NCBI RefSeq assembly: GCF_030996345.1
Contig: NZ_CP118747.1
Coordinates: 1,734,001 to 1,798,000 of the forward strand
Length of the DNA: 64,000 nt
Reading direction: 5' to 3'
From: Acidithiobacillus sp. AMEEHan
Lineage (GTDB): Bacteria > Pseudomonadota > Gammaproteobacteria > Acidithiobacillales > Acidithiobacillaceae
Shown: positions 45,994-61,281 of the stretch, piece after piece
Layout: every line of letters starts with the position of its first letter
Position numbering within the stretch: the first letter of the stretch is position 1
Program-made: the position numbers and the translations under genes
Notes under the pieces: generated by a model
Told to the model about the DNA's origin: nothing
What the model saw: the letters and a program-made list of their open reading frames with translations, nothing else
Databases searched by the model: none

Positions 45994-47058
45994 ATGACCG
46001 ATAACATTGCACCAGAGCAGGCCCCAGGAATCATCGATCGGGACGCCGCCCTGCGCTATCAGACGGCGAGCTTGCAACGCGTTTCGCGAACCTTCGCCCT
46101 GACCATTCCGCGTTTGCCGGCTGGATTGCAGGAGACGGTAGGCAACGGCTACTTGCTCTGCCGTATCGCGGACACCATCGAGGATGATCCGCTGCTTGAT
46201 TGGGAGGCCAAGGCGCACTGGCAAAAGGTTTTCCTTGCGGTCTTGCGCAAGGAGACGCCGGCAGAGGAGTTTGCCCGCGGCTTTGCCCAGGTAATGGCAG
46301 CAGAGATGCCTGACGGTGAACATGACCTGATTGCTAATAGTCCTGTGGTCGTGTCGTTGACCCACTCCTTCAATTCCGTGCAGCAAAGTGCCCTCATTCG
46401 CTGTGTCGAAATCATGGGTGAGGGGATGGCGGAATTCCAGCGTCGGGCCTCGCGAGCCGGACTGCGGGACCAGGCCGACATGGACCACTATTGCTACGTG
46501 GTTGCGGGCGTCGTCGGCGAGATGCTCACTACCCTGTTCGTGGAAGAGGAGCCGCGTATGCTCGCCGGCGGCGCGGATCTCCCAGCGTTGGCGGTGTCGT
46601 TTGGCCAAGGCCTGCAGATGACCAACATCTTGAAGGACTTATGGACAGATTGGGAACGGGGGGTGCTCTGGTTACCGCAGGACCGTCTCCGCGACCACGC
46701 TCTGGCGCCGGAGGACTTACACCCGGGCATGAATCAGCCCGAATTCACCAAGCTGTTGATGGAAATGATCGCGCTGGCAGCGCAACACCTGCGCAACGCC
46801 CTGACCTTTACCCTGCGGATCCCCGCCGAGCAGACCGGGATGCGGGATTTTTGTCTCTGGGCCATCGCCATGGCAGTGCTGACCCTGCGCCGCATCGCCG
46901 AAAACCCCGGCTTTTGTAGTGCCGACGAGGTCAAGATCAGTCGCGTTAGCGTGCGCAATGTCGTGTTGCTGTCGCGTCTGCTGCACCGCTTCGATCCGTT
47001 GCTGGATCTGACGTTCCGAGTGGCTGTCAAGAGCCTGCCGCAGGGGCAATCATGTTGA
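45994..47058 (+). CDS. Squalene synthase (squalene/phytoene synthase family)
   Basis: Condenses two farnesyl diphosphates to squalene, the hopanoid precursor. 354 residues. The two Asp-rich motifs are CRIADTIEDD (Asp60, Asp64) and QMTNILKDLWTDWERG (about 208-223), and HYCYVVAGVVGEMLTTLF lies between. The pattern is closer to eukaryote-like ERG9 squalene synthase than to the HpnC/HpnD pair; HpnC, HpnD and HpnE are absent nearby. It overlaps shc by 7 bases. Confidence 0.85.
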   Translation: MTDNIAPEQAPGIIDRDAALRYQTASLQRVSRTFALTIPRLPAGLQETVGNGYLLCRIADTIEDDPLLDWEAKAHWQKVFLAVLRKETPAEEFARGFAQVMAAEMPDGEHDLIANSPVVVSLTHSFNSVQQSALIRCVEIMGEGMAEFQRRASRAGLRDQADMDHYCYVVAGVVGEMLTTLFVEEEPRMLAGGADLPALAVSFGQGLQMTNILKDLWTDWERGVLWLPQDRLRDHALAPEDLHPGMNQPEFTKLLMEMIALAAQHLRNALTFTLRIPAEQTGMRDFCLWAIAMAVLTLRRIAENPGFCSADEVKISRVSVRNVVLLSRLLHRFDPLLDLTFRVAVKSLPQGQSC

Positions 47059-48974
47059 TGCCCAGCACCCGCTACGGAGTGGCGCGGCAGCGGCACGCGC
47101 CCCTGGAAAGGACGATTGCAGCGGCGCTCGCAGCATTGCGCACGCGACAGGCGGAGGATGGGCATTGGTGCTTTGAATTTGAAGCGGACTGCACCATTCC
47201 CGCCGAATATATCCTGATGATGCACTACATGGACGAAATCGACGCTCCCTTGCAACGCAAAATCGCGGTATATCTGCGGCGACACCAGGCAGAGCATGGT
47301 GGTTGGCCCCTGTATCATGGTGGGGGTTTCGACATGAGCGCCTCGGTAAAGGCCTACTACGCCCTCAAGCTTGCTGGAGAGGCTCCCGAGGCGCCGCATA
47401 TGCGTCGGGCCCGGGCGGCCATCCTGGCGCATGGCGGGGCGGAGCGCGCCAATGTCTTCACCCGCATCACCCTGGCCTTGTTCCGTCAGGTACCTTGGCG
47501 TGCCGTCCCTTTCATTCCCGTGGAAATCTTGCTCTTTCCTCGCTGGATGCCGATGCACATCTACAAAGTGGCGTCGTGGTCGCGCACGGTCATGGTGCCT
47601 CTCTTCATCCTTTGCAGCCTCAAGGCGCAGGCGAAGAATCCTACGGGTATCGGTATCGCGGAACTCTTTCGCCAGCAGCCATTCGCCATCCGCGACTATT
47701 TCGCCTGTGCGCGCAAGGGCTTCATTGCCCGCGTGTTTCTTGCTGGGGATCGCCTTGGCCGTGCACTCGAGCCATTCATTCCCGGCGTACTGCGTCGGGC
47801 CGCTATCCGTCGTGCCGAGGCCTGGTTTACGGCGCGCCTGAATGGCGTGCATGGGGTGAACGGCATTTTCCCGGCCATGGTCAATGCCCACGAGGCTCTC
47901 GCGCTGCTGGGCTATGCGGAGGACCATCCTTATCGACAACAGACACGGCAGGCCTTACGTAACCTGCTCGTCGAACGCGTCCATGAGGCCTACTGCCAGC
48001 CCTGTGTTTCGCCGGTCTGGGATACCTGCTGGGGGCTGCGCGCCATGCTCGAGATCATGCCCGAGCCGGATGAGAATGCGCGGGCTGCCATGCGCTGGCT
48101 CCTCGACCGGCAGATCACCGATGCTCCGGGAGACTGGCAGTTCAGCCGCCCAGATCTGCCAGGCGGTGGCTGGGCATTCCAGTACGAAAATTCCTATTAT
48201 CCGGACCTGGACGATACGGCGGCGGTGGCCTGGACCTTGCTCCTGGCCGGCCGGCCGGAAGACCGTCCGGCGCTGGAACGGGCCGCAGACTGGCTGGTGG
48301 GTATGCAGTCGCGCAATGGCGGTTTTGGCGCCTACGATGTCGACAATACCCACTACTATCTGAATGAGATTCCTTTTGCCGATCATAAAGCGCTGCTGGA
48401 CCCGCCGACAGCCGATGTCAGCGGGCGGGTGTTGACCTTTCTCGCTGCCCTTGCTCGTCCCCAGGACCGCCCGGCCATCGCACGGCTCGTGCGCTACCTG
48501 TTGGAGCAACAGGAGGCCAATGGCTCCTGGTTCGGCCGCTGGGGAACCAATTACATCTATGGCACCTGGTCGGTGCTCCTGGCGTTTTCCGAGTTGGGGG
48601 ACAGCGCCCTGCAGCCGGCCATGCAACGGGCTGCGGAATGGCTGCGGAGTGTGCAACAGGCGGATGGAGGTTGGGGCGAGAGCAACGACTCCTACCTCGA
48701 CGCTGGCCTTGCCGGTCAGGGGCAGCCGTCGACGGCGGCGCACACCGCTTGGGCCTGTCTGGCCTTGATGGCGGCGGGCGACTCCGACAGCGAGGCCCTG
48801 CGGCGCGGCATCCAGTGGCTGCAGGCGCATCAGAGTGAAGATGGCGAATGGCATGATCCCTGGTTCAACGCCCCGGGTTTCCCGCGGGTTTTCTACATTA
48901 CCTATCACGGATACAAGCTGTATTTCCCCTTATGGGCGCTCAGTCGCTATCAAAACCTGCAGGTCGGCGCCTAG
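47052..48974 (+). CDS. shc: Squalene-hopene cyclase
   Basis: Cyclises squalene to hopene and hopanol in the inner membrane. 640 residues, alpha/alpha-barrel terpene cyclase with QW repeats (such as GSWFGRWGTNYIYGTW, QQADGGWGESNDSY) and the catalytic acid motif DLDDTA (about 385-390). Its end overlaps the hpnG start by 43 bases. Also called HpnF. Confidence 0.96.
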   Translation: MLMPSTRYGVARQRHAPLERTIAAALAALRTRQAEDGHWCFEFEADCTIPAEYILMMHYMDEIDAPLQRKIAVYLRRHQAEHGGWPLYHGGGFDMSASVKAYYALKLAGEAPEAPHMRRARAAILAHGGAERANVFTRITLALFRQVPWRAVPFIPVEILLFPRWMPMHIYKVASWSRTVMVPLFILCSLKAQAKNPTGIGIAELFRQQPFAIRDYFACARKGFIARVFLAGDRLGRALEPFIPGVLRRAAIRRAEAWFTARLNGVHGVNGIFPAMVNAHEALALLGYAEDHPYRQQTRQALRNLLVERVHEAYCQPCVSPVWDTCWGLRAMLEIMPEPDENARAAMRWLLDRQITDAPGDWQFSRPDLPGGGWAFQYENSYYPDLDDTAAVAWTLLLAGRPEDRPALERAADWLVGMQSRNGGFGAYDVDNTHYYLNEIPFADHKALLDPPTADVSGRVLTFLAALARPQDRPAIARLVRYLLEQQEANGSWFGRWGTNYIYGTWSVLLAFSELGDSALQPAMQRAAEWLRSVQQADGGWGESNDSYLDAGLAGQGQPSTAAHTAWACLALMAAGDSDSEALRRGIQWLQAHQSEDGEWHDPWFNAPGFPRVFYITYHGYKLYFPLWALSRYQNLQVGA

Positions 48975-49660
48975 GTCTTGTCGTCGCCCTCGCGGTCGAA
49001 GCCAAGGCATTGGGGCTGCCGGCCTCGCCCATGGGCAAGGTACACCCCTGCGCGGACGGTCATCTCGCCATTCTCTCCGGGATGGGACCCGAGGCCGCGG
49101 CAAACGCGGGTCGAGCCCTCCTGGAAGCGGGAGCCGAGGCCCTGCTGAGTGTAGGTACTGCCGGCGCTTTGCGGAGTGACTTGCAAGCCGGCGATCTTTG
49201 CATTCCCCGACAGATCCTCTGGCAGGAGCGTGCGTACTCTGCGGATGAAGTTCTGGCAAGTCATTTTCTCGCTCAGCACCCGCAGGCACGGCGGGAGAAC
49301 TTGCTGTCGCTTGCCCAGATGCTGGTCGATCGGCAGAGCAAGGCGGCGTACGCGCAGCAGGCGCTCGCCGTGGATATGGAGAGCGGCGCGCTCGCCGCAC
49401 TGGCAGCGGCGGAGGGGCATCCCTTTCTCGCCTTGCGCGTCATCGTCGACAGTGTCGATGCCGTAGTGCCGGACGCCGTACGTCGCGGAGTCGATGCCGT
49501 GGGCAACCCGCGTTTGCCCGGGTTTCTCTGGCAACTGCTGCGCCGCCCGCGGGATGTGCCGCGGCTGATCAGGCTCGGCGGACAGATGCAGCGAGCCGCG
49601 ATCACCCTGCGGCAATTGGGCAGGGCATCGGAGAAGGGAGGATGGGGATGCGGGCACTGA
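48932..49660 (+). CDS. hpnG: HpnG, adenosylhopane nucleosidase/phosphorylase
   Basis: Removes adenine from adenosylhopane in hopanoid side-chain synthesis. 242 residues of the purine nucleoside phosphorylase type: ALAVEAKALGLP, SGMGPEAAANAGRALLEAG, SVGTAGALRSDLQAGDL and the Asp/Glu motif AVDMESGALAALA. The ATG at 48932 is the only in-frame start before the conserved first strand and lies 43 bases inside shc, which is unusually deep. Confidence 0.88.
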   Translation: MGAQSLSKPAGRRLGLVVALAVEAKALGLPASPMGKVHPCADGHLAILSGMGPEAAANAGRALLEAGAEALLSVGTAGALRSDLQAGDLCIPRQILWQERAYSADEVLASHFLAQHPQARRENLLSLAQMLVDRQSKAAYAQQALAVDMESGALAALAAAEGHPFLALRVIVDSVDAVVPDAVRRGVDAVGNPRLPGFLWQLLRRPRDVPRLIRLGGQMQRAAITLRQLGRASEKGGWGCGH

Positions 49661-50640
49661 TTACCGGCGCCTCCGGTTTTGTTGGTGCAGCCGTATTGCG
49701 ACGCTTGACCCTGGAGGGCGTCCCGGTACGCCTGCTGGCTCGCACTGGCGCAGATGACAGCGCGTGGAAAAACTTGCCTGGCGTGGAACGGGTGGTGGGT
49801 GACCTCTGTGATCCGGCCAGCCTACGGCAGGCGGTGGCCGGCTGTCGTTGGCTCTTCCATGTGGCCGCCGATTATCGCCTCTGGGTGCCGGATCCCGAAC
49901 CCATGTACCAAGCCAATGTCGTTGGCACCGAGACATTGATGCGGGCTGCCCTGGATGCTGGCGTGGAGCGTATTGTCTATACCAGTAGCGTCGCGGTACT
50001 GGGCTTGCGCGCCGATGGGCAACCCAGTGATGAAGAAACCCCGTCGACTCTGGCTGACATGATTGGCCACTATAAACGCAGCAAGTATCTCGCCGAAGAA
50101 CGGGTGCGTGCGTTGTGTCGTGACGAGGATGCGCCGATCGTCATTGTCAATCCCTCTACCCCCATCGGACCGGAGGATCGTAAGCCGACGCCGACTGGGC
50201 GCATGGTGCTCGAAGCGGCGGCGGGACGTATGCCCGCCTATATCGATACCGGCCTTAATGTCGTGCATGTGGATGATGTGGCGCTGGGGCACTGGCTTGC
50301 CTTGCAGCAAGGAAAATCTGGCGAACGCTACATTCTCGGTGGTGACAATTTGTCGCTGCAGGCCATCCTCACCCGCATCAGCGGCTTGACCGGGCGATCC
50401 TCGCCGCGCCTACGTCTACCGCGGCGTCTGTTGTACCCGATTGCCTGGGGTTCCGAGGCTTGGGTGCGCTGGCGTGGTCGAGGCTTGCCGCTGGTCAGTA
50501 CGGATGAGCTGCGTATGGCCGCACATCGCATGTATTTCGACTCGCGCAAAGCCGAACAGCAGCTTGGCTATACCCATCGCCCGGCGGAGGAGGCCTTGCG
50601 GGATGCTGTGGCCTGGTTTGCCGAGCATCGCTATTTCTGA
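49648..50640 (+). CDS. hpnA: HpnA, hopanoid-associated sugar epimerase
   Basis: Extended short-chain dehydrogenase, 330 residues. Starts MRALITGASGFVGAAVLRRL (NAD-binding GXXGXXG) and has the catalytic Tyr/Lys in HYKRSKYLAE, with Ser in YTSSVAVLG. The GGAGG at 49637-49641 is 6 bases before the ATG 49648 but directly abuts the earlier ATG 49642, so 49648 is preferred. The substrate in hopanoid synthesis is not known. Overlaps hpnG by 13 bases. Confidence 0.9.
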   Translation: MRALITGASGFVGAAVLRRLTLEGVPVRLLARTGADDSAWKNLPGVERVVGDLCDPASLRQAVAGCRWLFHVAADYRLWVPDPEPMYQANVVGTETLMRAALDAGVERIVYTSSVAVLGLRADGQPSDEETPSTLADMIGHYKRSKYLAEERVRALCRDEDAPIVIVNPSTPIGPEDRKPTPTGRMVLEAAAGRMPAYIDTGLNVVHVDDVALGHWLALQQGKSGERYILGGDNLSLQAILTRISGLTGRSSPRLRLPRRLLYPIAWGSEAWVRWRGRGLPLVSTDELRMAAHRMYFDSRKAEQQLGYTHRPAEEALRDAVAWFAEHRYF

Positions 50641-50644
50641 TCCC

Positions 50645-51778
50645 GTGCTGATCGCTGCGTACTTTTTTGCGCTAATCGCCGGCCTTTCCTGCATCTACTG
50701 GGCCCTCGCCTGGTGGCAGGTGGAGACTTGGCAACCGCAGTTGCCGGAGGACGCAGGTCCGCTCTCTGCGCCCGACGCAGCTGGGATCAGCATCATCAAA
50801 CCGTTGCACGGAATCGAGCCGGAGCTCTCCGCAAATCTGCAGAGTTTTCTGGCGCAGCGCTACCCTCGTTTCGAGATGCTCTGCGGGGTCCAGGATTCTG
50901 CCGATCCTGTCCTGCTGCTTCTCGCGGAATTGTCGGAACGATCGAAGCTGCGAATTATTCGGCATGCGACGACGCTTGGCAGCAACCCCAAGGTCAACAA
51001 CTTGGCGGGCATCATTGCCGAGGCGAGCTATCCCATTCTGGTACTGGCTGACGCGGACATTCGCGTCGGACCGAGCTACCTGGCGCATCTGGTCCGCGAG
51101 CTGAACCTGCCCGAGGTGGGGGTGGTAAGCTGTTTATATCGGGCGCGTCCCCTTTCCGGTTTCTCCTCACAGCTCTTGGCCGTGCAGATTCAAGAGCATT
51201 TTTTGCCGTCGGTGCGCCTTGCCGCAGCACTCGGGCCCAATGTTTATTGCGGTGGCGCAACGATTGCCGTGCGCCGCGAGTCGTTCGACGCGATGGCTGG
51301 CTGTGCCGCCCTCGCCGACGAGCTTGCCGATGACTATGCCTTGGGAGCGCGGATACGCGCTTTGGGATATCAGAGCGTGCTGAGCGACTACGTGGTCGAG
51401 ACGCTGGTGGCCGAAGACGGATTCGCCGCCTTCTACGCCCATGCCCTGCGTTGGGCGCGCACCACCCGCGCCGTGCAACCCTGGGGGCATGCCTTTTCGT
51501 TTTTGACCTATCCGGTTCCTCTGGTACTGATGCTTGCCGTGTTTTGGCAGGGGTGGGCCTGGAGTGTGGTGGCGCTGGTCGCCTGCCTGCGCCTCGTGTA
51601 CCATTGGCGGATTGGACGAAAATTGCGATCGCCATTGTCGGCGACGGCGGTGCTGGTGGCGGACATCCTGGGTCTGTGGATCTGGGGGCACGCGCAAGTC
51701 GCCGGAAAGGTACGCTGGCGTGGTCGCAATTTTTCCATCGATGCCCACGGGCAAATGCATGACGGAGTACAGCGATGA
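50645..51778 (+). CDS. hpnI: HpnI, hopanoid glycosyltransferase
   Basis: Ceramide glucosyltransferase-like GT21/GT2 enzyme that adds N-acetylglucosamine to bacteriohopanetetrol (established in Burkholderia). 377 residues: N-terminal span, GISIIKPLHGIEPEL, LADADIRVGPSY (the DXD site), LADDYALGARI and a C-terminal set of spans. The frame extends upstream inside hpnA; the GTG at 50645 is 5 bases after the hpnA stop and begins the hydrophobic segment. No strong ribosome site. Confidence 0.88.
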   Translation: MLIAAYFFALIAGLSCIYWALAWWQVETWQPQLPEDAGPLSAPDAAGISIIKPLHGIEPELSANLQSFLAQRYPRFEMLCGVQDSADPVLLLLAELSERSKLRIIRHATTLGSNPKVNNLAGIIAEASYPILVLADADIRVGPSYLAHLVRELNLPEVGVVSCLYRARPLSGFSSQLLAVQIQEHFLPSVRLAAALGPNVYCGGATIAVRRESFDAMAGCAALADELADDYALGARIRALGYQSVLSDYVVETLVAEDGFAAFYAHALRWARTTRAVQPWGHAFSFLTYPVPLVLMLAVFWQGWAWSVVALVACLRLVYHWRIGRKLRSPLSATAVLVADILGLWIWGHAQVAGKVRWRGRNFSIDAHGQMHDGVQR

Positions 51779-53202
51779 CCATGAAAACCTTGTTCCTGCA
51801 GGCGCCTTCCTTCGAAGGGTTTGATGGGGGAGCGGGCTCCCGCTACCAGGCCAAGCGCGAGATTCGCTCTTTCTGGTTTCCCACCTGGCTGGCCCAGCCG
51901 GCGGCCATGATTCCCGGCAGTCGTCTACTCGACGCCCCGCCGGCCGATATCACTGTGGAAGAGACCCTGCGCATTGCTGCCAGCTACGAGTTGTGCATCA
52001 TTCACACCAGTACCCCTTCCTTTCCTTCTGACGTCCGCATGGCGGAAATGCTCAAGGCGCGTTATCCCAAGATGATTATCGGTCTGGTTGGCGCCAAAGT
52101 CGCGGTGGAGCCCGAAGAGTCCCTGCAGGCATCGCCCGCCATCGATTTCGTGGCGCGGGAAGAGTTCGATTACACCCTGAAAGAGATCGCCGAGGGGCGG
52201 CCACTGGCGGAAGTGGATGGTATCAACTACCGCGACAGCAATGGGCTGCTGGTGCGCACTCCTGATCGCGCCATGATCGAGGATATGGATGCTTTGCCCT
52301 TCGTCTCAGAAGTCTACAAGCGCGATCTGCACATCGAAGACTACTTCATCGGCTATCTGAAACATCCCTACATTTCTTTCTATACTGGGCGTGGCTGTCG
52401 CTCGCAGTGTACCTTCTGCCTCTGGCCGCAGACGGTCGGTGGTCATCGCTACCGCACCCGTAGCGCCGCCAGTGTCATCGAAGAGGTGAAGTACATCCAG
52501 AAGGCCTTTCCGCAGGTGCAGGAAGTCTTTTTCGATGATGATACCTTCACCGACGATCGTCCGCGTGCGGAGGAGATCGCCCGTGGCCTTGGCAAGCTCG
52601 GCGTCACCTGGTCCTGCAACGCCAAGGCCAACGTCCCCTACGACACCCTCAAGGTTCTGCGTGATAATGGCTTGCGCCTGCTGCTGGTGGGCTACGAATC
52701 GGGCAATCAGCAGATTCTCAACAACATCAAAAAGGGCCTGAAGGTCGAGGCGGCGCGCAAGTTTACTGCCGACTGCCACAAGCTCGGCATCGCCATCCAC
52801 GGCACCTTCATTCTGGGATTGCCCGGCGAAACCAAGGAGACGATTCAGCAAACCATCCAGTTTGCCAAGGAAATCAATCCACATACTATCCAGGTATCCC
52901 TGGCGGCGCCTTACCCTGGCACCTACCTCTATAACCAGGCCAAAGAACAGGGCTGGCTGACCGAAGAGGATGAGGCGCATCTGGTCAACGATCGTGGAGT
53001 GCAGATCAGCCCCATGAGTTATCCCCACCTCAATCACACGGAAATTTTTGATTCGGTTGAGGTGATGTACAAGAAATTCTACTTCCGTGCGGGCAAGATC
53101 GCGGAAATCACCGGAGAGATGCTGCGCAGTTCACAAATGATGAAACGCCGTCTGCGGGAGGGGGTAGAGTTTGTGCGCTTTCTTCGTCAGCGGCATGGCT
53201 GA
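51775..53202 (+). CDS. hpnJ: HpnJ, hopanoid cyclitol ether radical SAM protein
   Basis: 475 residues: an N-terminal B12-binding-like domain, then the radical SAM core with GRGCRSQCTFC (Cys208, Cys212, Cys215). It converts the glucosamine on bacteriohopanetetrol to the cyclitol ether (shown in Burkholderia work). Overlaps hpnI as ATGA with GGAG 7 bases upstream. The order hpnI-hpnJ-hpnK keeps all three cyclitol genes together. Confidence 0.92.
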   Translation: MTMKTLFLQAPSFEGFDGGAGSRYQAKREIRSFWFPTWLAQPAAMIPGSRLLDAPPADITVEETLRIAASYELCIIHTSTPSFPSDVRMAEMLKARYPKMIIGLVGAKVAVEPEESLQASPAIDFVAREEFDYTLKEIAEGRPLAEVDGINYRDSNGLLVRTPDRAMIEDMDALPFVSEVYKRDLHIEDYFIGYLKHPYISFYTGRGCRSQCTFCLWPQTVGGHRYRTRSAASVIEEVKYIQKAFPQVQEVFFDDDTFTDDRPRAEEIARGLGKLGVTWSCNAKANVPYDTLKVLRDNGLRLLLVGYESGNQQILNNIKKGLKVEAARKFTADCHKLGIAIHGTFILGLPGETKETIQQTIQFAKEINPHTIQVSLAAPYPGTYLYNQAKEQGWLTEEDEAHLVNDRGVQISPMSYPHLNHTEIFDSVEVMYKKFYFRAGKIAEITGEMLRSSQMMKRRLREGVEFVRFLRQRHG

Positions 53203-53204
53203 AT

Positions 53205-54074
53205 GTGGCGAGCGAACGAAGAGTCATTTTCAATGCGGATGATTTCGGCCTAGATGCTTCCGTAAATGCTGCAGTTGTGTCGGCGCATCAACACGGGGTA
53301 CTCAATAGTGCGAGTCTGATGGTGTCGGCCGCGGCTGCTGCTGAGGCCCTTGCGCTTGCGCGGAATCTGCCTGATCTTGGAGTTGGTTTGCATTTGACCC
53401 TGGTGGATGGTTATCCGGTATTGCCTGCGGCGCAGGTTCCTGATCTGGTCGATGAGCATGGTCGTTTTGCCGCTGACCTATGGCGTCGCGGCATTCGCTA
53501 TTTTTTTCTGCCGCGGGTGCGGCGCCAGCTCGCCGCCGAGATCGCCGCGCAATACGCGGTCTTCGCCGACAGTGGTTTGCGCCTCGATCACGTGAACGCG
53601 CACAAGCACCTGCACGCCCATCCTACGGTCCTGAATCTGCTCATCGAAATTGGCAGGCGCTTTGCCTTGCGCGCGGTGCGCATTCCGCGGGAACCGTTGG
53701 CACTGGCGCGGCAGCTGGCGCCGGTGACGGGCAGCGCTGCGTTGGGCGCACGGTTATTACTACCCTGGGTTGCGCGCATGCGTCGCGTCATCCGCTCTCA
53801 AGGACTATTCTGCAACGATCTCTTGCTGGGACTGCAGTCCACCGGACAGATGGATGCCGACCGACTGCGACGTGCTCTGGCCATTGTCCCCTCTGGACAG
53901 GTGACGGAGCTGTATTTTCACCCCGCGCAGGAACAGACCGCGCAACTGCGGCAACTGATGCCCGACTATCGGCCCGCGGCGGAGTGGCGGGCGCTCTGTG
54001 CCCCAGAACTCGCGACAACTCTGCGCGCCCAAGGTATTCGTACCGGAACGTATCATGATTTCGCCTGCGGCTGA
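53205..54074 (+). CDS. hpnK: HpnK, hopanoid deacetylase (YdjC-type)
   Basis: 289 residues of the YdjC/ChbG fold. It opens VIFNADDFGLDASVNAAVV (metal Asp) and has GVGLHLTLVDGYPVLP and LDHVNAHKHLHAHP (His ligands). It removes the acetyl group from the GlcNAc-hopanoid before HpnJ acts. Starts with GTG 2 bases after hpnJ; overlaps hpnN by 20 bases. Confidence 0.9.
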   Translation: MASERRVIFNADDFGLDASVNAAVVSAHQHGVLNSASLMVSAAAAAEALALARNLPDLGVGLHLTLVDGYPVLPAAQVPDLVDEHGRFAADLWRRGIRYFFLPRVRRQLAAEIAAQYAVFADSGLRLDHVNAHKHLHAHPTVLNLLIEIGRRFALRAVRIPREPLALARQLAPVTGSAALGARLLLPWVARMRRVIRSQGLFCNDLLLGLQSTGQMDADRLRRALAIVPSGQVTELYFHPAQEQTAQLRQLMPDYRPAAEWRALCAPELATTLRAQGIRTGTYHDFACG

Positions 54075-56751
54075 GCGATTTCTTGCGCGCATTGGCGAGT
54101 GGTACATGCGCCGCATCTGTATGCTCATGGCATTCTCGGTGCGCCATGCCAAAGCGGTGTTTTTCTCTTTTGCCCTCCTGCTCCTGCTGGCGCTTGCCTA
54201 CGTTGTCACCCATTTCGCGATGAATACCGACACCAGCGATGTGTTGTCGCATGATCTGCCGTTTCAACAACGCGAAATTGCTTACAAAAAGGTCTTTCCC
54301 CAGGACCGCGATAGCATCGTCGTTGTCTTGCAGGGAAAGAACACGAGCGCGACAGAGAACGCTGTCGAGCGACTGCAAGGCTGGCTGGAAGCGCATCCCA
54401 AGTATTTCCGCAGTGTTTATGTTCCGGGCGGTGGCAAGTTCTTTGCGCAGAATGGCTTGCTATATCTGTCCGAGCAGCAGGTACATGAGTTTGCGCGGCG
54501 GATCACGGCGGCACAGCCATTGATTGCCAGCCTTTCTGCCAACCCCAGTCTGGCAGGTCTGAGCGATCTGCTCACGGAAGCAGCGCAGCAGAGTCTTCAC
54601 GGCAACGTCGATGTTCAAGGTCTCGTACCCTTATACGATGCCTTTACGCAAAGTATCGATGCGCAGCTGGCCGGACATCCGCGGCAGATCGATTGGGCCA
54701 AGCTGATGGGTGGCAGTTTGGGAGATCTGGGACCCCAGCAGCGTTTTGTGATTATCGAGCCAACCCTGAATTATGACAGTCTGCAGCCAGCCGAGGCCTC
54801 CATCCAATTCTTGCGCAAGGGCCTGGAGACGTTGCACATCAACGCGGCGCATGGGCTGAAGGTGGGGATCACCGGCCAGGCTGTACTGGATGCGGAGCAA
54901 ATGAAAACCGTCAGCGAAGGCGCGTTTTCCTCGCTGGCCATTACTTTCGGGCTGGAGATCCTGCTTCTCATCATTGCGTTGCGTAGTACCCGTCTCGTGG
55001 TAGGGGTGCTCTTCAATCTTGTTGCTGGCATCATTTTCACCACCGCCTGGGCATTGCTGGTGATTGGGCCGTTCAACCTGATCTCTGTGTCTTTTGCCAT
55101 TTTATTCATTGGGTTGGGCGTCGATTTTGGTATTCAGTTCAGCTTGCGCTTTCGCGAGGAGCTTTTCAACGGAGCGAGTCACGAAGAGGCGATGCGGCGT
55201 GTCTCTCGCGGTTTGGGCGCAGCCTTATCGCTTGCAGCCGTCGCTGCCGCCATCAGTTTTTTCGCCTTTGTGCCCACCAGTTATGCAGGCATCGTAGATC
55301 TGGGGTTGATCTCCGGCGCCAGCATGTTGATCGGACTGTTCCTCACCCTTACCCTGTTGCCCGCCTTTCTCACTCTCTGGCGGCTCTCAGCAACGGCGCG
55401 GAAACACGTGAATTTTCCCCGTTTCCATCGGGTGCCCACGCTTGCACGGCATCCCATTCACCGGTACGCTTGGCTGGTTCTCGCGGTGGTTGCCGTGCTT
55501 GCCGTCGCGGCGTTTCCTGCTGCGCTGCAGGTTCGCTTCGATTTCAATCCGCTGCACATGATCGATCAGAACGCGGAAGGGGTAAAGGTTTTTGAGGAAT
55601 TGCTTGCCAATCCTGATACGGCACCCTATCGCATCGAGGTCCTCGCAAAAAATCTGGACGAGGCACAAGCCATCGCAAAACGACTGGAAAAGGTGCCGAC
55701 GGTCGCTCGGGCGTTGACCATTGCCGACTATATCCCGCAAGACCAGGAACCGAAGCTTGCCATTCTCAACAATCTGCAGATCCTCGTACCACCATTTTCT
55801 TTACTGATGCCTGCCAGTTTGACCTCGCCAGCGTCGGATACGGCGCAAAAAATGGAGAAGCTGCAAAAGAAGTTGCAGGAACTGGCCGCCAAGAAGAAGG
55901 GTGAGCAGGCGCGCGCGGCCGGCAACCTGGCGCATGCATTGGCCCGATTCCTGGCGGCGGATGCCCAGGATTCTGCGGCGCTGGCGTCGCTGCAAAACTC
56001 CCTGCTGGGCACCTTGCCGGGCGAATTGCATCAGCTTGGTGAGGCGCTCCTAGCCTCGCGCGTAACCATCGACAATCTACCCAAGGACCTGCGTAGCCGT
56101 TATCTCGCCGCTGATGGGCAGGCGCGGGTGGAAGTCTTTCCCAAAGCGGATCTGACCAATAATCAAAAAATGCTGCATTTCGTTTCTACGGTGCTCCAGG
56201 TCGAGCCGCGAGCGGTTGGCGCCCCGGTTATGCTGGTGCAGGGAGGAGAGGCAGTATTGGGCGCTTTCCAGGAGGCGACCTGTATCGCCATTGGGGGTAT
56301 CGCCCTGCTGCTGCTGCTATCTTTGCGTCGCTATCGCGACATGTTATTGATTGTTCTGCCCTTGCTGCTGGCAGCTCTGTTTACGGTGGCGGCAATGTCG
56401 CTGTTGGGAGTCAGTTTCAATCTGGGCAATATCATTGTGTTGCCGCTTCTCATTGGTCTGGGGGTGGCATTTGGTATCTATATCGTGCTGCGCTGGCGCA
56501 GCGGAGTCGACGCTGCACATCTCTTGCAAACGTCCACGCCGATGGCGGTTTTTTTCAGTGGTCTGACCACCCTCAGTGCCTTCGGCAGTATGGCGTTGTC
56601 CGTCGATCCCGGGATGGCGAGTCTGGGTGACGCGCTGAGTCTTGCATTGGCGGTGGTTCTGCTCTGCATTCTGGTCGTGCTGCCAGCGCTACTGCTCCTT
56701 TTCACTGCCTCACCGCGTGAGGAAGGGATTGCCCAGGATGAGGGCAGCTGA
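54055..56751 (+). CDS. hpnN: HpnN, RND/MMPL-type hopanoid transporter
   Basis: 898 residues with the RND plan: one span near residue 35-60, a large periplasmic domain, five spans (GVLFNLVAGIIFTTAWALLV, SVSFAILFIGLGVDFGIQFS), a second periplasmic domain and final spans (LPLLIGLGVAFGIYIVLRW). It moves hopanoids toward the outer membrane (shown in Rhodopseudomonas). The ATG at 54055 is inside the end of hpnK; an earlier in-frame start at 53998 is unlikely because the RBS (GGAA) precedes 54055. Confidence 0.92.
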   Translation: MISPAAERFLARIGEWYMRRICMLMAFSVRHAKAVFFSFALLLLLALAYVVTHFAMNTDTSDVLSHDLPFQQREIAYKKVFPQDRDSIVVVLQGKNTSATENAVERLQGWLEAHPKYFRSVYVPGGGKFFAQNGLLYLSEQQVHEFARRITAAQPLIASLSANPSLAGLSDLLTEAAQQSLHGNVDVQGLVPLYDAFTQSIDAQLAGHPRQIDWAKLMGGSLGDLGPQQRFVIIEPTLNYDSLQPAEASIQFLRKGLETLHINAAHGLKVGITGQAVLDAEQMKTVSEGAFSSLAITFGLEILLLIIALRSTRLVVGVLFNLVAGIIFTTAWALLVIGPFNLISVSFAILFIGLGVDFGIQFSLRFREELFNGASHEEAMRRVSRGLGAALSLAAVAAAISFFAFVPTSYAGIVDLGLISGASMLIGLFLTLTLLPAFLTLWRLSATARKHVNFPRFHRVPTLARHPIHRYAWLVLAVVAVLAVAAFPAALQVRFDFNPLHMIDQNAEGVKVFEELLANPDTAPYRIEVLAKNLDEAQAIAKRLEKVPTVARALTIADYIPQDQEPKLAILNNLQILVPPFSLLMPASLTSPASDTAQKMEKLQKKLQELAAKKKGEQARAAGNLAHALARFLAADAQDSAALASLQNSLLGTLPGELHQLGEALLASRVTIDNLPKDLRSRYLAADGQARVEVFPKADLTNNQKMLHFVSTVLQVEPRAVGAPVMLVQGGEAVLGAFQEATCIAIGGIALLLLLSLRRYRDMLLIVLPLLLAALFTVAAMSLLGVSFNLGNIIVLPLLIGLGVAFGIYIVLRWRSGVDAAHLLQTSTPMAVFFSGLTTLSAFGSMALSVDPGMASLGDALSLALAVVLLCILVVLPALLLLFTASPREEGIAQDEGS

Positions 56752-57781
56752 TCTCTCATTTTTCCGCTATCGAGGCATAGGCAGCGCAGCGCTGCTTTCC
56801 TTTGGGCTCCTGTTCACTGCCTGGCTGGTGTGGCACGAGGGGGCGCACGGAATCGTTGCCATATTGCGGCAAAGCTCTTGGCTGATCTGGCTGCTTTTGC
56901 CCGCCCATGCCTTGGCGATCGGTCTTGATGCGTTGAGCTGGCGCTGGCTCCTGGCCTCAGTGCCTGGGCGCCCGGCGTTGCCCAGGTTGACTTGGCTGGC
57001 CTTGCTGCGGGAAGCCGTCAATGGTCTGCTACCCGTTGCCCGAGTGGGCGGCGAATTTGTGGGCATCCGGCTCTTGGCACGCATGGGTGTTTCGCTCGTA
57101 CAGGCGGCGGCAAGCGTGGTGGTAGAGGTCAGTCTGACTTTGCTCAGTCAGTTTTTATTTGTCCTCCTCGGTTTCGTCCTCCTGCTGGATTGGGCGGGCG
57201 ACTTGCAGTTGCAGCGGGAGATCCTTTACGCCCTACTCGCAGTCATGCCGGTTTTGGCTTTGTTGTTTTGGTTGCAGGGTCACTTTGGCCTCTTTCATGT
57301 GTTGCATGCATTGTTGCGTCGGGTCAGTGGTGGCCGCGATTTCTCGGTCCTGATCGGCGACCCGCGGCAACTGGACGCAGAGGTTCTGCAGATCTATCGA
57401 CGGCGCTGGCCATTGCTTTGGGCAAATTTCTGGCAATTGGCTGGGCTATTTGCGGGTGCTGGCGAACTCTGGCTGAGTTTCTTGCTCCTGCAGCATCCCA
57501 TTTCTTTGTCTGCCGCCGTACTTCTGGAGAGTTTGGGGCAAGCCCTGAGAAGTGTGGCATTCTTTATGCCAGCAGCATTGGGCGTGCAGGAGGGTGGGTT
57601 CATCTTTTTTGGCGCAGTCGTGGGCGTTGGACCGGAGCTGGCCTTGGCCTATTCGCTCCTGCGCCGTTTCCGCGAATTGGCACTCGGATTACCGTTGCTG
57701 ATGTCCTGGTATGTTTGGGAAGGCCAAGGCTTGCGACGAAAATGGCTTGGAAGACAATGGTCTCAAGAGGAGGGCGTATGA
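56738..57781 (+). CDS. hpnL: HpnL, hopanoid-associated membrane protein
   Basis: 347 residues with about seven spans, of the lysylphosphatidylglycerol synthetase-like (UPF0104) fold. Typical segment [29 protein letters not shown] and [20 protein letters not shown]. Role unproven; proposed in hopanoid or lipid movement. The ATG at 56738 is 14 bases inside hpnN. The stop is coupled to the following diiron gene as ATGA. Confidence 0.87.
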
Positions 57782-58620
57782 GTGCAGTGGTGGGAGGGAT
57801 GACCGCGCAGGGCCATCGGGAGCTGTTTTGTGAGTTTTTTCACGCCACCCATATCGACTTTGATCCCGCCAGAATTGACTGGCCTGATCTGGATCCTGCG
57901 GCGGAGCAGCGCTTGAAATCCCTGCCGTTTTGGGGAGAGGCGGTGGCCACGGAGAGTGTTACCGCGCGCATGGTGCAGCACATGGCCGAGGCCGAAACGG
58001 ACCCGGTGGTGAAGGCGGCAATTGCCCTGGACGGTTTCGAGGAGCGCCGGCATGCGGAGCTGTTGCAGGCGTTGGTGAATCACTATGGCATTTCCATTCC
58101 ACCCACGCCTACCCCGCCGCCGATTCGTGATCCGTACTGGGAATTCCTCTTCACCGGTTATGGGGAATGTCTCGACTCTTATTTCGCCTTTGGTCTCTTT
58201 GCGGCGGCGCGAGATTCGGGCTTTTTCCCCGAAGCCCTGGTCAAGATCTTCGACCCAATCATGCAGGAAGAGGCGCGGCATATCATCTTCTTCATCAATT
58301 GGTTGCATTGGTATCGCCAACAATTGCCGTGGTGGAAGAAGATTCAGCTGGAATATCGACGCCTCCAGGTAATCGCCCTGCAGGCGTGGGCGCGCATCCA
58401 GACGGCGCGAGGAATGACAGATGGTGGGGAAGAAAATTTCACCATGACTGGTCATGAGCAGGTCAGCCAGGACATGAGTCTAACCAAGCTCCTTGCTCTC
58501 TGTCGCAGCGAAAACGAGCGCCGCTTCGCCCCGTATGATGCGCGTCTGCTGCGCCCCAAGCTGGCCCCGCGCATCGCCAATTTTCTGTTTTTCTTTCTAT
58601 CGCGCAGAAAGGCGGCATAG
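57778..58620 (+). CDS. Ferritin-like diiron protein of the hopanoid operon
   Basis: 280 residues with a complete four-helix diiron signature: Glu60 (or Glu54), then Glu89-X2-His92 ([11 protein letters not shown]), Glu130 ([11 protein letters not shown]) and Glu165-X2-His168 ([12 protein letters not shown]). Spacing between the pairs (29 and 35) is as in rubrerythrin and R2-type proteins. The tail ends with a hydrophobic stretch ([11 protein letters not shown]) that may attach it to the membrane. GGAGG lies 5 bases upstream and the ATG overlaps the hpnL stop. Its partner genes suggest it acts on a hopanoid, as an oxygenase, desaturase or hydroxylase, but that is inference. I know no named hpn gene for it. 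Confidence 0.82.
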
Positions 58621-58636
58621 AGAAAAGGTGTTGGGG

Positions 58637-58658
58637 TAACATACGCTACGGTATGTTA
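58637..58658 (+). promoter_or_regulatory. Perfect inverted repeat before hpnH, possible operator
   Basis: TAACATAC-N6-GTATGTTA, eight-base arms, 63 bases before the hpnH ATG. TATACT (58657-58662) at its right edge resembles a -10 hexamer, so a bound protein would block transcription; no clear -35 with normal spacing is visible. The 100-base gap holds nothing else. Confidence 0.5.
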
Positions 58659-58720
58659 TACTCAACAAGTACATTCGATTGCCCGGGCATAGAACCCCCG
58701 AGGAAAGGAGAAGGCTGAAA

Positions 58721-59824
58721 ATGGCAGTGCCACTTATACAGAGTTATCGCGTAGGCCGGTATATCATCGGTCAGAAATTGCGCGGTAACCGCCGTTATCC
58801 CTTGGTGCTCATGTTAGAGCCCTTGTTTCGTTGTAATCTGGCCTGTGCTGGTTGCGGCAAGATCGATTACCCCGATGAGGTGCTGGATAAGCGCCTTTCC
58901 GTGGAAGAATGTATCGGCGCCGCCGAGGAGTGTGGCGCGCCCATTGTCTCCATCGCTGGCGGCGAGCCGCTCATCCACAAGGACATGCCCGAGATCGTTG
59001 CCGGCCTCGTGCAACGCAAGCGATTCGTGTATTTGTGTACCAATGCATTGCTCCTGAAAAAGCGCATGGGCGACTACCAACCGTCGCCGTATTTGACCTT
59101 CTCCGTACACCTGGATGGCAATGAGCATCGCCATGACGATTCTGTCTGCCAGCCGGGAACGTACAAGCGGGCCGCAGCGGCCATTCGTGACGCGGTAGAG
59201 AAAGGTTTCCGGGTCACCGTCAACTGCACCTTGTTTCAGGGTGAGGGCGCGGAGGAAGTCGCGAACTTCCTGGATGACTGTAAAGCTCTAGGGGTGGAAG
59301 GGGTAACGATCTCCCCGGGCTTCAATTATGAGCGGGCGCCGCAACAGGAAGTTTTCATCAAGCGACAGGCGTCACGCCAACTGTTCCGCGACATCTTCCG
59401 CATTGGCAGGGAACGCAAGGCCAAGTGGAAATTTAACCAATCGAGCCTGTTTCTGGATTTCCTGGCGGGTAACCAGACCTATCAATGTACGCCCTGGGGG
59501 AACCCGACGCGTAACATTTTTGGCTGGCAGAAGCCCTGTTATCTGCTTGTCAGTGAAGGCTATGCCCCCAGTTTTCGTGCGCTGATGGAGGAAACTCCTT
59601 GGGAGCGGTACGGGGTAGGAAACAACAGCAAGTGCGACCAGTGTCAGGTACATTCTGGCTTTGAACCAACGGCGGTGAACGATACCTTTGCGCATCCACT
59701 CAAAGCCTTGAAGGTGTCCTTGTTTGGCCCAAGGACCCGGGGACCGATGGCGCCAGACATGCCTTCCAGCCCTTCGCACCCGGGGTCGGAAAGACCTGTG
59801 TTCCCGTTGCGGGTAGAGCGCTGA
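58721..59824 (+). CDS. hpnH: HpnH, adenosylhopane synthase (radical SAM)
   Basis: Joins 5'-deoxyadenosyl to diploptene, the first step of C35 hopanoid synthesis. 367 residues. The cluster site is FRCNLACAGC (Cys38, Cys42, Cys45) followed by IVSIAGGEPLIH; a C-terminal SPASM-like Cys set is in NNSKCDQCQVHSGFEP. The ATG at 58721 follows AGGAGAAGG; an upstream start at 58679 lies in the leader. It begins a second part of the cluster after a 100-base gap with an operator-like dyad. Confidence 0.95.
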   Translation: MAVPLIQSYRVGRYIIGQKLRGNRRYPLVLMLEPLFRCNLACAGCGKIDYPDEVLDKRLSVEECIGAAEECGAPIVSIAGGEPLIHKDMPEIVAGLVQRKRFVYLCTNALLLKKRMGDYQPSPYLTFSVHLDGNEHRHDDSVCQPGTYKRAAAAIRDAVEKGFRVTVNCTLFQGEGAEEVANFLDDCKALGVEGVTISPGFNYERAPQQEVFIKRQASRQLFRDIFRIGRERKAKWKFNQSSLFLDFLAGNQTYQCTPWGNPTRNIFGWQKPCYLLVSEGYAPSFRALMEETPWERYGVGNNSKCDQCQVHSGFEPTAVNDTFAHPLKALKVSLFGPRTRGPMAPDMPSSPSHPGSERPVFPLRVER

Positions 59825-59854
59825 TTCGCGGATATGGATCTATAGGAGATTTTT

Positions 59855-60508
59855 ATGTTTCGAGGTGCCCGATTGATCCTGCCAGTCTTGGCTCTGGGCC
59901 TGATTCCCGCGGGTGGCTCTGTTGCCTGGGCGAATACCTCGGCGACTGCTCAGATAGCGGCAGCGAGCAGTCCCAAGGCAACGATCGAAAAGCTGGACCA
60001 AGCTCTTCTTTCCACTATGAAGGCCGGCAAAGCTGCTGGGTATCAGGGGCGGTACAAGATTATTGCTCCTGTCGTGGATAAGACTTTTGATTTTCAGCGG
60101 ATCGGCGAGCTGGCATTAGGATCGGATTGGGGAAAATTGAGCGCGGAACAGCAAAAGCAGTTTGTGGAAGTGCTCGGCGAGTATACTGCGGCGACCTATG
60201 CTGGCCGTTTTGATGGTTACGATGGCGAGCACTTTGCGATTGTCGAGGCGCAGCAGTTGCGCCCGGGTACCATGGGAGTCTTCTCGACTTTCACGATGAA
60301 AAATGGCCGGGTGCATCGTTTTGATTATCTGCTCGAGCAGGCCGATGGAAAAGATTGGAAAATCATCAATGTGGTCGCCGATGGTGTCAGCGATTTATCG
60401 TTGAAGCGTTCGGAATATACAGAAATGATCAACAGCAAGGGCTTCCCGGCACTGCTTGCGCATCTGCGGAAGGAAATCCAGGCCTACGCATCCGGTAGTA
60501 AATCGTGA
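59855..60508 (+). CDS. hpnM: HpnM, MlaC/Ttg2D-like periplasmic lipid carrier
   Basis: 217 residues with a signal peptide (to about AWA, 26) and an MlaC-type domain: DKTFDFQRIGELALGSDWGKL and FVEVLGEYTAATYAGRF. MlaC shuttles phospholipid between membranes; HpnM is its hopanoid-cluster relative. TAGGAG is 7 bases upstream. Ends in GTGA overlap with mlaA. Confidence 0.9.
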   Translation: MFRGARLILPVLALGLIPAGGSVAWANTSATAQIAAASSPKATIEKLDQALLSTMKAGKAAGYQGRYKIIAPVVDKTFDFQRIGELALGSDWGKLSAEQQKQFVEVLGEYTAATYAGRFDGYDGEHFAIVEAQQLRPGTMGVFSTFTMKNGRVHRFDYLLEQADGKDWKIINVVADGVSDLSLKRSEYTEMINSKGFPALLAHLRKEIQAYASGSKS

Positions 60509-61281
60509 TTATCCGCCGTCTGGCTCTTCTGTTCGGTCTCGTTGGATGCCTTGGCTTGAGCGGCTGCGCAACCGTGCATGGCCCTTCCGCTGGCGCTTCT
60601 GGGACGAATGATCCCCTCGAGCCCATCAATAAGCCCATTTTCAACGCCAATTTATGGTTGTTCCGCAATGTTCTTAGCCCGGTGAACCAAGGCTACGAGG
60701 CTGTTACTCCCAAATTCTTCCGCACCGGTGTCAGCAATGTCTTCGCCAATGCCGACATGCCCTATATCTTCCTCAACGACTTCCTGCAGGGACGGGTGCA
60801 GCCGGGAATGGAGGGCTTGAGTCGTTTTCTGGTCAATACCATTTTCGGCTTGGGGGGCATTTTTGACGTCGCCGACAAGCTCGATCTACCCAAGCAGGAT
60901 AATGGATTTGGCGTGACCCTGGGAGTATGGGGAGTGCCACAGGGACCGTATCTGGTCTTGCCGTTCTATGGTCCCAGTTCGCTGCGCAATCTGCCCGGTA
61001 TGGCCCTGGCGATTTTTGTTTCTCCTCCGTATTATTTCCCGAGCAGCAATGCGCAATGGGCGTGGACGGGGATGGGTGTGATCAACACCGGTCATGTGGA
61101 TGCGCCGCAGGTGAAAATGGTGGAGGATGCCGTGAATCCGTACATTTTTGCCCGCAATGCTTGGGAACAGCATGAGCAGTTCTTGATTGACGGTGGCAAG
61201 GTGAACAAGAATCAGCTGCTGGAGGGTTTGGATTTGCCCCCGCCGACGGCAAGCACGTCCTCGGCTGCCAGTATGCCCTGA
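60505..61281 (+). CDS. mlaA: MlaA/VacJ-family outer-membrane lipoprotein
   Basis: 258 residues, lipobox LSGC (Cys21), then DPLEPINKPIFNANLWLFRNVL, GRVQPGMEGLSRFLVNTIFGLGGIFDVA and GVWGVPQGPYLVLPFYGPS, the MlaA hallmarks. MlaA forms the outer-membrane lipid pore of the Mla system. GTG start in overlap with hpnM, so they are made together. No MlaFEDB genes are in the window. Confidence 0.92.
   Translation: MIIRRLALLFGLVGCLGLSGCATVHGPSAGASGTNDPLEPINKPIFNANLWLFRNVLSPVNQGYEAVTPKFFRTGVSNVFANADMPYIFLNDFLQGRVQPGMEGLSRFLVNTIFGLGGIFDVADKLDLPKQDNGFGVTLGVWGVPQGPYLVLPFYGPSSLRNLPGMALAIFVSPPYYFPSSNAQWAWTGMGVINTGHVDAPQVKMVEDAVNPYIFARNAWEQHEQFLIDGGKVNKNQLLEGLDLPPPTASTSSAASMP

Follow-up and report, generated by a model that had tools for sequence, protein, structure and literature searches.

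A diiron-type protein family of bacterial hopanoid gene clusters with a possible role in side-chain hydroxylation

Among the diiron proteins already described, MiaE is a ferritin-like hydroxylase whose target is an isoprenoid side chain, the ligand bound by R2lox is a fatty acid, and AurF is defined by an extra His ligand one turn ahead of its last ExxH motif. Methylococcus-type methanotrophs are known for aminotetrol and aminopentol; penta- and hexafunctional hopanoids, aminopentol foremost, are sediment markers of methane-oxidising and other bacteria. The sections of a 2025 survey that we draw on (PMC12583986) record as unknown both the genes for unsaturated BHPs and those for BHpentol and BHhexol; the surroundings of hpn clusters were inspected for the latter and, according to those sections, a candidate was not found. 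In the legend to Fig. 6C of another paper (PMC8886135), the Acidithiobacillaceae cluster is drawn as sqs-hpnFGAIJKNL-ferritin-hpnHM.

The stretch of DNA that we analysed (64,000 nucleotides; ‘the window’) contains a complete hopanoid cluster at 45994-61281, comprising sqs, shc (hpnF), hpnG, hpnA, hpnI, hpnJ, hpnK, hpnN, hpnL, a gene that we call X, hpnH, hpnM (mlaC) and mlaA (Table 1). The product of gene X is 280 aa long. The DNA is from an Acidithiobacillaceae genome, whose closest named relatives are Acidithiobacillus sp. YTS05 (97% in X) and Candidatus Igneacidithiobacillus taiwanensis (90%). X evidently occupies the same gene position as the ‘ferritin’ of the 2022 paper (PMC8886135), where, in the sections cited, it appears in the drawing only: function, family and distribution were not found there. 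An earlier note on this DNA had described X as coupled by ATGA to hpnL and as lying just before hpnH. Both statements hold: the ATG of X overlaps the TGA of hpnL at 57778-57781, and hpnH starts at 58721, 100 nt downstream of X. The hpnL/X junction is preserved in nearly all Acidithiobacillaceae relatives.

Table 1. Features of the hopanoid cluster in the window, in order of position.
Feature	Position	Strand	Basis
sqs-type single-step squalene synthase gene, first in cluster	45994..47058	+	Best match TIGR01559 squalene synthase, 104.6 bits, below cut-off
hpnF(shc)-hpnG-hpnA-hpnI-hpnJ-hpnK	47052..54074	+	Profile scores above cut-offs except hpnG, 161.7 bits, below 187.1
hpnN-like MMPL/RND lipid exporter	54106..56751, start approximate	+	PF03176
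hpnL, putative flippase-like membrane protein; ATGA overlap with gene X	56738..57781	+	TIGR03476 289.9 bits, cut-off 195.65; PF03706
Gene X, subfamily A, ferritin-like/R2-like diiron family; proposed hopanoid side-chain hydroxylase	57778..58620	+	ORF, invariant ligands, predicted fold
Palindrome TAACATAC-N6-GTATGTTA overlapping TATACT -10-like box, between X and hpnH	58637..58662	+	Kept in Acidithiobacillaceae relatives
hpnH, adenosylhopane synthase (radical SAM)	58721..59824	+	TIGR03470 533.2 bits
mlaC-like hpnM + mlaA	59855..61281	+	PF05494, PF04333

We also observed that, in Acidithiobacillaceae (the window, loci L002-L010 and L158), a CATAC-N6-GTATG palindrome leads into TATACT shortly before hpnH. 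The palindrome and the -10-like element are retained in L158 (genome G671), where X is absent and hpnH comes straight after hpnL. Because the element persists there without X, hpnH probably has a promoter of its own; the palindrome and -10-like box probably belong to that gene and look like a regulated promoter. A simple promoter scan made no call at this element (58637-58662). Gene X is tied translationally to hpnL, and co-transcription with hpnH need not hold. The same locus (L158 19558-19710; G671 is Acidithiobacillus-type) has an intact hpn cluster with no X between hpnL and hpnH, and so amounts to a natural deletion.

The protein carries the ligand set of a carboxylate-bridged diiron site much as the earlier note had read it: the ExxH pairs E89/H92 and E165/H168 are correct, as is E130 as one partner glutamate; the first partner is E59 and not E60, residue 60 being a variable Ser. 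In an alignment of the fetched loci, with identity down to ~32-36%, all 99 distinct sequences have E59, E89, H92, E130, E165 and H168, that is, the four Glu/Asp and two His ligands of the diiron superfamily. Also invariant in these 99 homologues are E88, R91, E164, R167, N174, Y103, E245, R248 and R249, and this degree of conservation is far beyond chance. In the AlphaFold model, a confident one (pLDDT 86.6, pTM 0.85), the ligands sit on a four-helix bundle in the canonical order: helices 52-72 (E59), 76-103 (E89/H92), 119-147 (E130) and 152-181 (E165/H168). Model and conservation together back the proposed diiron-type fold, as a predicted R2/R2lox-like four-helix bundle. The first-ranked structure matches listed (Foldseek, VIA-align) are R2 and R2lox proteins, with TM ~0.5-0.58 and Z 14-15, a Z that barely exceeds chance level for helical bundles; the ligand pattern agrees with R2/R2lox. 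A C-terminal helix (262-279) is predicted that is moderately hydrophobic only (best 15-residue hydropathy 1.1); going by the model, membrane attachment through it is possible.

No Pfam or NCBIfam model exceeded its cut-off for the X protein, and none was strong with a 22-member alignment, which weakly matched AurF, Rubrerythrin, Ferritin_2 and R2lox and, in the same profile comparison, matched no rubredoxin domain. Strict membership of R2lox (NF006200) was rejected, X scoring 14.6 bits against a cut-off of 194, as was that of AurF (PF11583; 20.2 bits against a gathering score of 29.6); at position 161 (E165 minus 4), where AurF has its seventh-ligand His, the two subfamilies described below have mostly Val (A) or always Leu (B). 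The gene X family is a new branch of the known diiron enzyme superfamily. Our search of the open-licence literature found no report of the family, of its restriction to hopanoid makers or of the A/B duplication, and no paper joining hopanoid, ferritin-like and hpnH.

The distribution of X follows that of hopanoid genes. It is present in 14 of 398 Pseudomonadota genomes sampled across the phylum, and all 14 carry squalene-hopene cyclase (shc), for which the background is 47 genomes over the cut-off, or 57 at E <= 0.001; the hypergeometric value for this overlap (~1e-14 to 8e-14) is inflated by relatedness, with 8 family labels among the carriers. A Sphingomonadaceae-like sample (n=150) has X in three genomes, all within the 15 that are shc+, and there X always lies in the hpn cluster beside hpnK. 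Full-length X was found in 70/130 Acetobacteraceae, with shc present in every carrier rechecked, and 22/31 genomes of the window's own order contain it. Four Acidithiobacillaceae that lack X were rechecked and have kept shc; two outgroup genomes are without both. A search of 217 genomes of a Bradyrhizobium-like family that is rich in hopanoid makers found no X, two marginal partial matches (E 1.6e-5 and 8.9e-4) having been left out of the count. Like an hpn protein, X is confined to shc+ genomes among those tested (14/14 and 3/3 carriers, plus every carrier rechecked).

Residence within hpn clusters was seen in Acidithiobacillaceae, G156, Massilia forsythiae, Cupriavidus metallidurans CH34, sphingomonads, Roseomonas gilardii and Reyranella-like genomes, and the position varies: after hpnK, after hpnL, beside hpnA, or near hpnH or hpnN. 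The earlier note had asked whether homologues track with hopanoid genes; they do, in that no carrier without shc is among those checked and many lineages have X within their hpn clusters, and the hopanoid link that it drew for X is supported on both counts. Bearing in mind that X keeps to shc+ genomes and hpn clusters and is absent from some hopanoid makers, it is therefore a dedicated, non-essential hopanoid gene.

Several genomes were named by matching plasmid contigs to PLSDB: at 100% for Commensalibacter melissae, Formicincola oecophyllae, Massilia forsythiae, Kozakia baliensis, Acetobacter ascendens and Roseomonas gilardii, less exactly for a Komagataeibacter (near europaeus), and with no clear name for G483 and G824. 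From plasmid matches and an 89-genus family sample we infer that G483 belongs to Sphingomonadaceae. Rhodopila globiformis was rejected as the identity of G902, in which no recovered cytochrome c resembled the known R. globiformis cytochrome c2. In Commensalibacter-type genomes (L059, L062, L065), X is directly downstream of a gene for a ClpP-like protease, away from the hpn cluster.

A tree of the family splits subfamily A (the window protein and most members) from subfamily B, with support of 100/100. B directly follows A in ~16 Acetobacteraceae, and in G604 (L052 8005-9900, minus strand) the two are fused in one open frame through a basic linker of ~40 residues. We noted apparently similar A-B fused open frames in G826 and G915. 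Several members of family f224 have A and B separated by 11-14 kb, and in G400, G1187 and G1157 the hpn cluster lies between them; this family, sampled as 75 genomes of which 69 fall in a single genus, probably corresponds to Reyranellaceae. Another genome, G136, has B without A, together with methenyl-H4MPT cyclohydrolase (Mch), Fae, oxidosqualene cyclase and shc; because of this gene set it appears to resemble a Methylococcus-type methanotroph. Directly upstream of its B gene (L013:705-1466) is a second, distinct ferritin-like protein of 253 aa with a weak AurF match, which could be a partner hydroxylase in place of A. A and B can be told apart at, among others, positions 55, 96, 126 and 161. 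All four lie about one helical turn (four residues) away from a metal ligand, a pattern that would be expected if the two worked on one type of substrate but at different sites.

We propose, at a little short of even confidence, that X is a non-heme diiron hopanoid oxygenase, most likely a C-31 side-chain hydroxylase that yields BHpentol, with its paralogue B acting at C-30. Two electrons and O2 would give rise to a peroxo or high-valent diiron species in X, which would take a hydrogen from an unactivated hopanoid CH2, after which the OH would rebind. The likeliest site for A would be C-31, adjoining the polyol, so that a C35 hopanoid (at the adenosyl-, ribosylhopane or BHT stage) would be converted to the BHpentol series; B would hydroxylate the neighbouring C-30, giving BHhexol and, in methanotrophs, aminopentol. 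The broader proposal, that A (C-31: BHpentol, aminotetrol) and B (C-30: BHhexol, aminopentol) are the missing side-chain hydroxylases, as paralogous soluble diiron oxygenases that are sometimes fused, we put forward tentatively and regard as somewhat doubtful in its entirety. The earlier note had suggested an unrecognised hopanoid change: hopanoid modification survives, and the ‘unrecognised’ part probably does not, the step most likely being the known formation of BHpentol/BHhexol, for which the gene is missing.

Published profiles bear on this proposal; in the sections of PMC12583986 used here, pentol and hexol were taken per strain as combined sums. These are present in acetic acid bacteria and essentially nil in Hyphomicrobiales; Enhydrobacter (Reyranellaceae) has 77% pentol+hexol with 1% unsaturated, Kozakia baliensis DSM 14400 has 29% and 56%, respectively, and pentol occurs in six of eight BHP-producing sphingomonads, with 0-1% unsaturated (PMC12583986). 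Our genome G834, which has A + B, contains a plasmid that matches the one in a palm-brown-sugar isolate of K. baliensis at 100% identity over 20 kb; palm brown sugar is the stated source of the profiled strain (PMC12583986). The occurrence of X agrees with these partial pentol/hexol data for Hyphomicrobiales, Reyranellaceae and Kozakia; among sphingomonads, X is in 3/15 shc+ genomes versus pentol in 6/8 strains, and X is on that account not the sole pentol enzyme. Further weak points of the hydroxylation reading are that Roseomonas gilardii carries A whereas Muricoccus pecuniae, the sole Roseomonas-related strain tested in the survey sections cited, has neither pentol+hexol nor unsaturated BHPs (PMC12583986); that the cited part of the Acidithiobacillus hopanoid profile does not name pentol (PMC8886135); and that G136 has B without A.

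The best-surviving alternative, one that we judge unlikely, is that X accounts for the missing desaturation of hopanoid rings, A serving delta-6 and B delta-11: the diiron chemistry would be the same with two hydrogens removed, as in acyl-ACP desaturases. The genes for unsaturated BHPs are among those recorded as unknown (PMC12583986), and the two subfamilies could correspond to two ring positions. High unsaturation is reported in the same survey sections for acetic acid bacteria, Skermanella and Afipia; Acetobacter, Komagataeibacter and Kozakia, all of which carry A, are genera with 54-82% unsaturated BHPs (PMC12583986), and Burkholderia cenocepacia, which also carries A, makes both pentol cyclitol ether and delta-6 products including delta-6 BHT cyclitol ether (PMC8560942). 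Since B. cenocepacia and most of the X+ acetic acid bacteria also produce unsaturated hopanoids, they cannot separate hydroxylation from desaturation. However, sphingomonads and Enhydrobacter have next to no unsaturated BHPs in those sections, yet Sphingomonadaceae- and Reyranellaceae-like hpn clusters hold A, or A + B; and Afipia broomeae is listed with 43% unsaturated BHPs (PMC12583986), yet a search of 217 genomes from what is probably its family found no X, on which ground Afipia was rejected as an X+ delta-6 producer. Furthermore, membrane sterol-desaturase-like proteins have already been proposed for the unsaturation step in the cited parts of PMC6460317 and PMC12583986. On balance, side-chain hydroxylation fits the published profiles, as far as these sections give them, better than ring desaturation.

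Next in rank, and in our estimate improbable, X would be another hopanoid-tailoring diiron oxidase (for C-32 oxidation, or for a cyclitol-ether or amino side-chain step) or an accessory oxidase that affects amounts and not kinds. X often lies directly after hpnK, and the Acidithiobacillus profile, in the part cited, has no reported pentol (PMC8886135). On the other hand, in Reyranella-like clusters the fetched stretch holds A + B but none of hpnI, J and K, and X is therefore not tied to the cyclitol ether; Hyphomicrobiales include cyclitol ether makers, yet no X turned up in the family sampled from that order.

That X shields the radical SAM enzymes HpnH and HpnJ, which are sensitive to oxygen, as the earlier note had also suggested, or stores iron, in the manner of rubrerythrin or ferritin, we consider very improbable: its ferritin-like fold, its place beside hpnH here, the ‘ferritin’ label in the published drawing (PMC8886135) and the weak Rubrerythrin and Ferritin_2 matches are in favour, but protection of the radical SAM steps is unsupported because many hopanoid makers that use those enzymes (the 217 Bradyrhizobium-like genomes, Methylobacterium-like genomes) lack X and because A and B differ around the metal, and iron storage or rubrerythrin-type protection was rejected as the main role on distribution, on fold matches that are R2/R2lox, on the subfamily differences and with no rubredoxin domain matched.

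If hydroxylation by A and B is the correct reading, the making of aminopentol, the marker for methanotrophs, would rest on a searchable gene family. With a named family, the side-chain chemistry, its oxygen need and its taxonomic spread would become directly testable.

The proposal for X can be set beside four described systems. The ‘sterol desaturase family’ candidates (PMC6460317, PMC12583986) and hpnX are, like X, proposed for iron-dependent hopanoid oxidation in the sections cited, where the APB desaturase candidate is placed outside hpn clusters (PMC12583986); they differ from X in being membrane His-box proteins of unrelated fold. MiaE, the tRNA ms2io6A hydroxylase, is the closest PDB sequence type (weak profile match 5ux1, E 0.0075), and differs from X in its tRNA substrate and in the absence of full-length similarity. 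AurF/PF11583 is the most frequent weak Pfam match, found with 15/22 members of the X family (best E 2.6e-5). R2lox and ribonucleotide reductase R2 have in common with X, as modelled, the four-helix diiron-type bundle and the E / ExxH / E / ExxH order of ligands; identity to X is 10-15%, and X has in addition the E245/R248/R249 motif.
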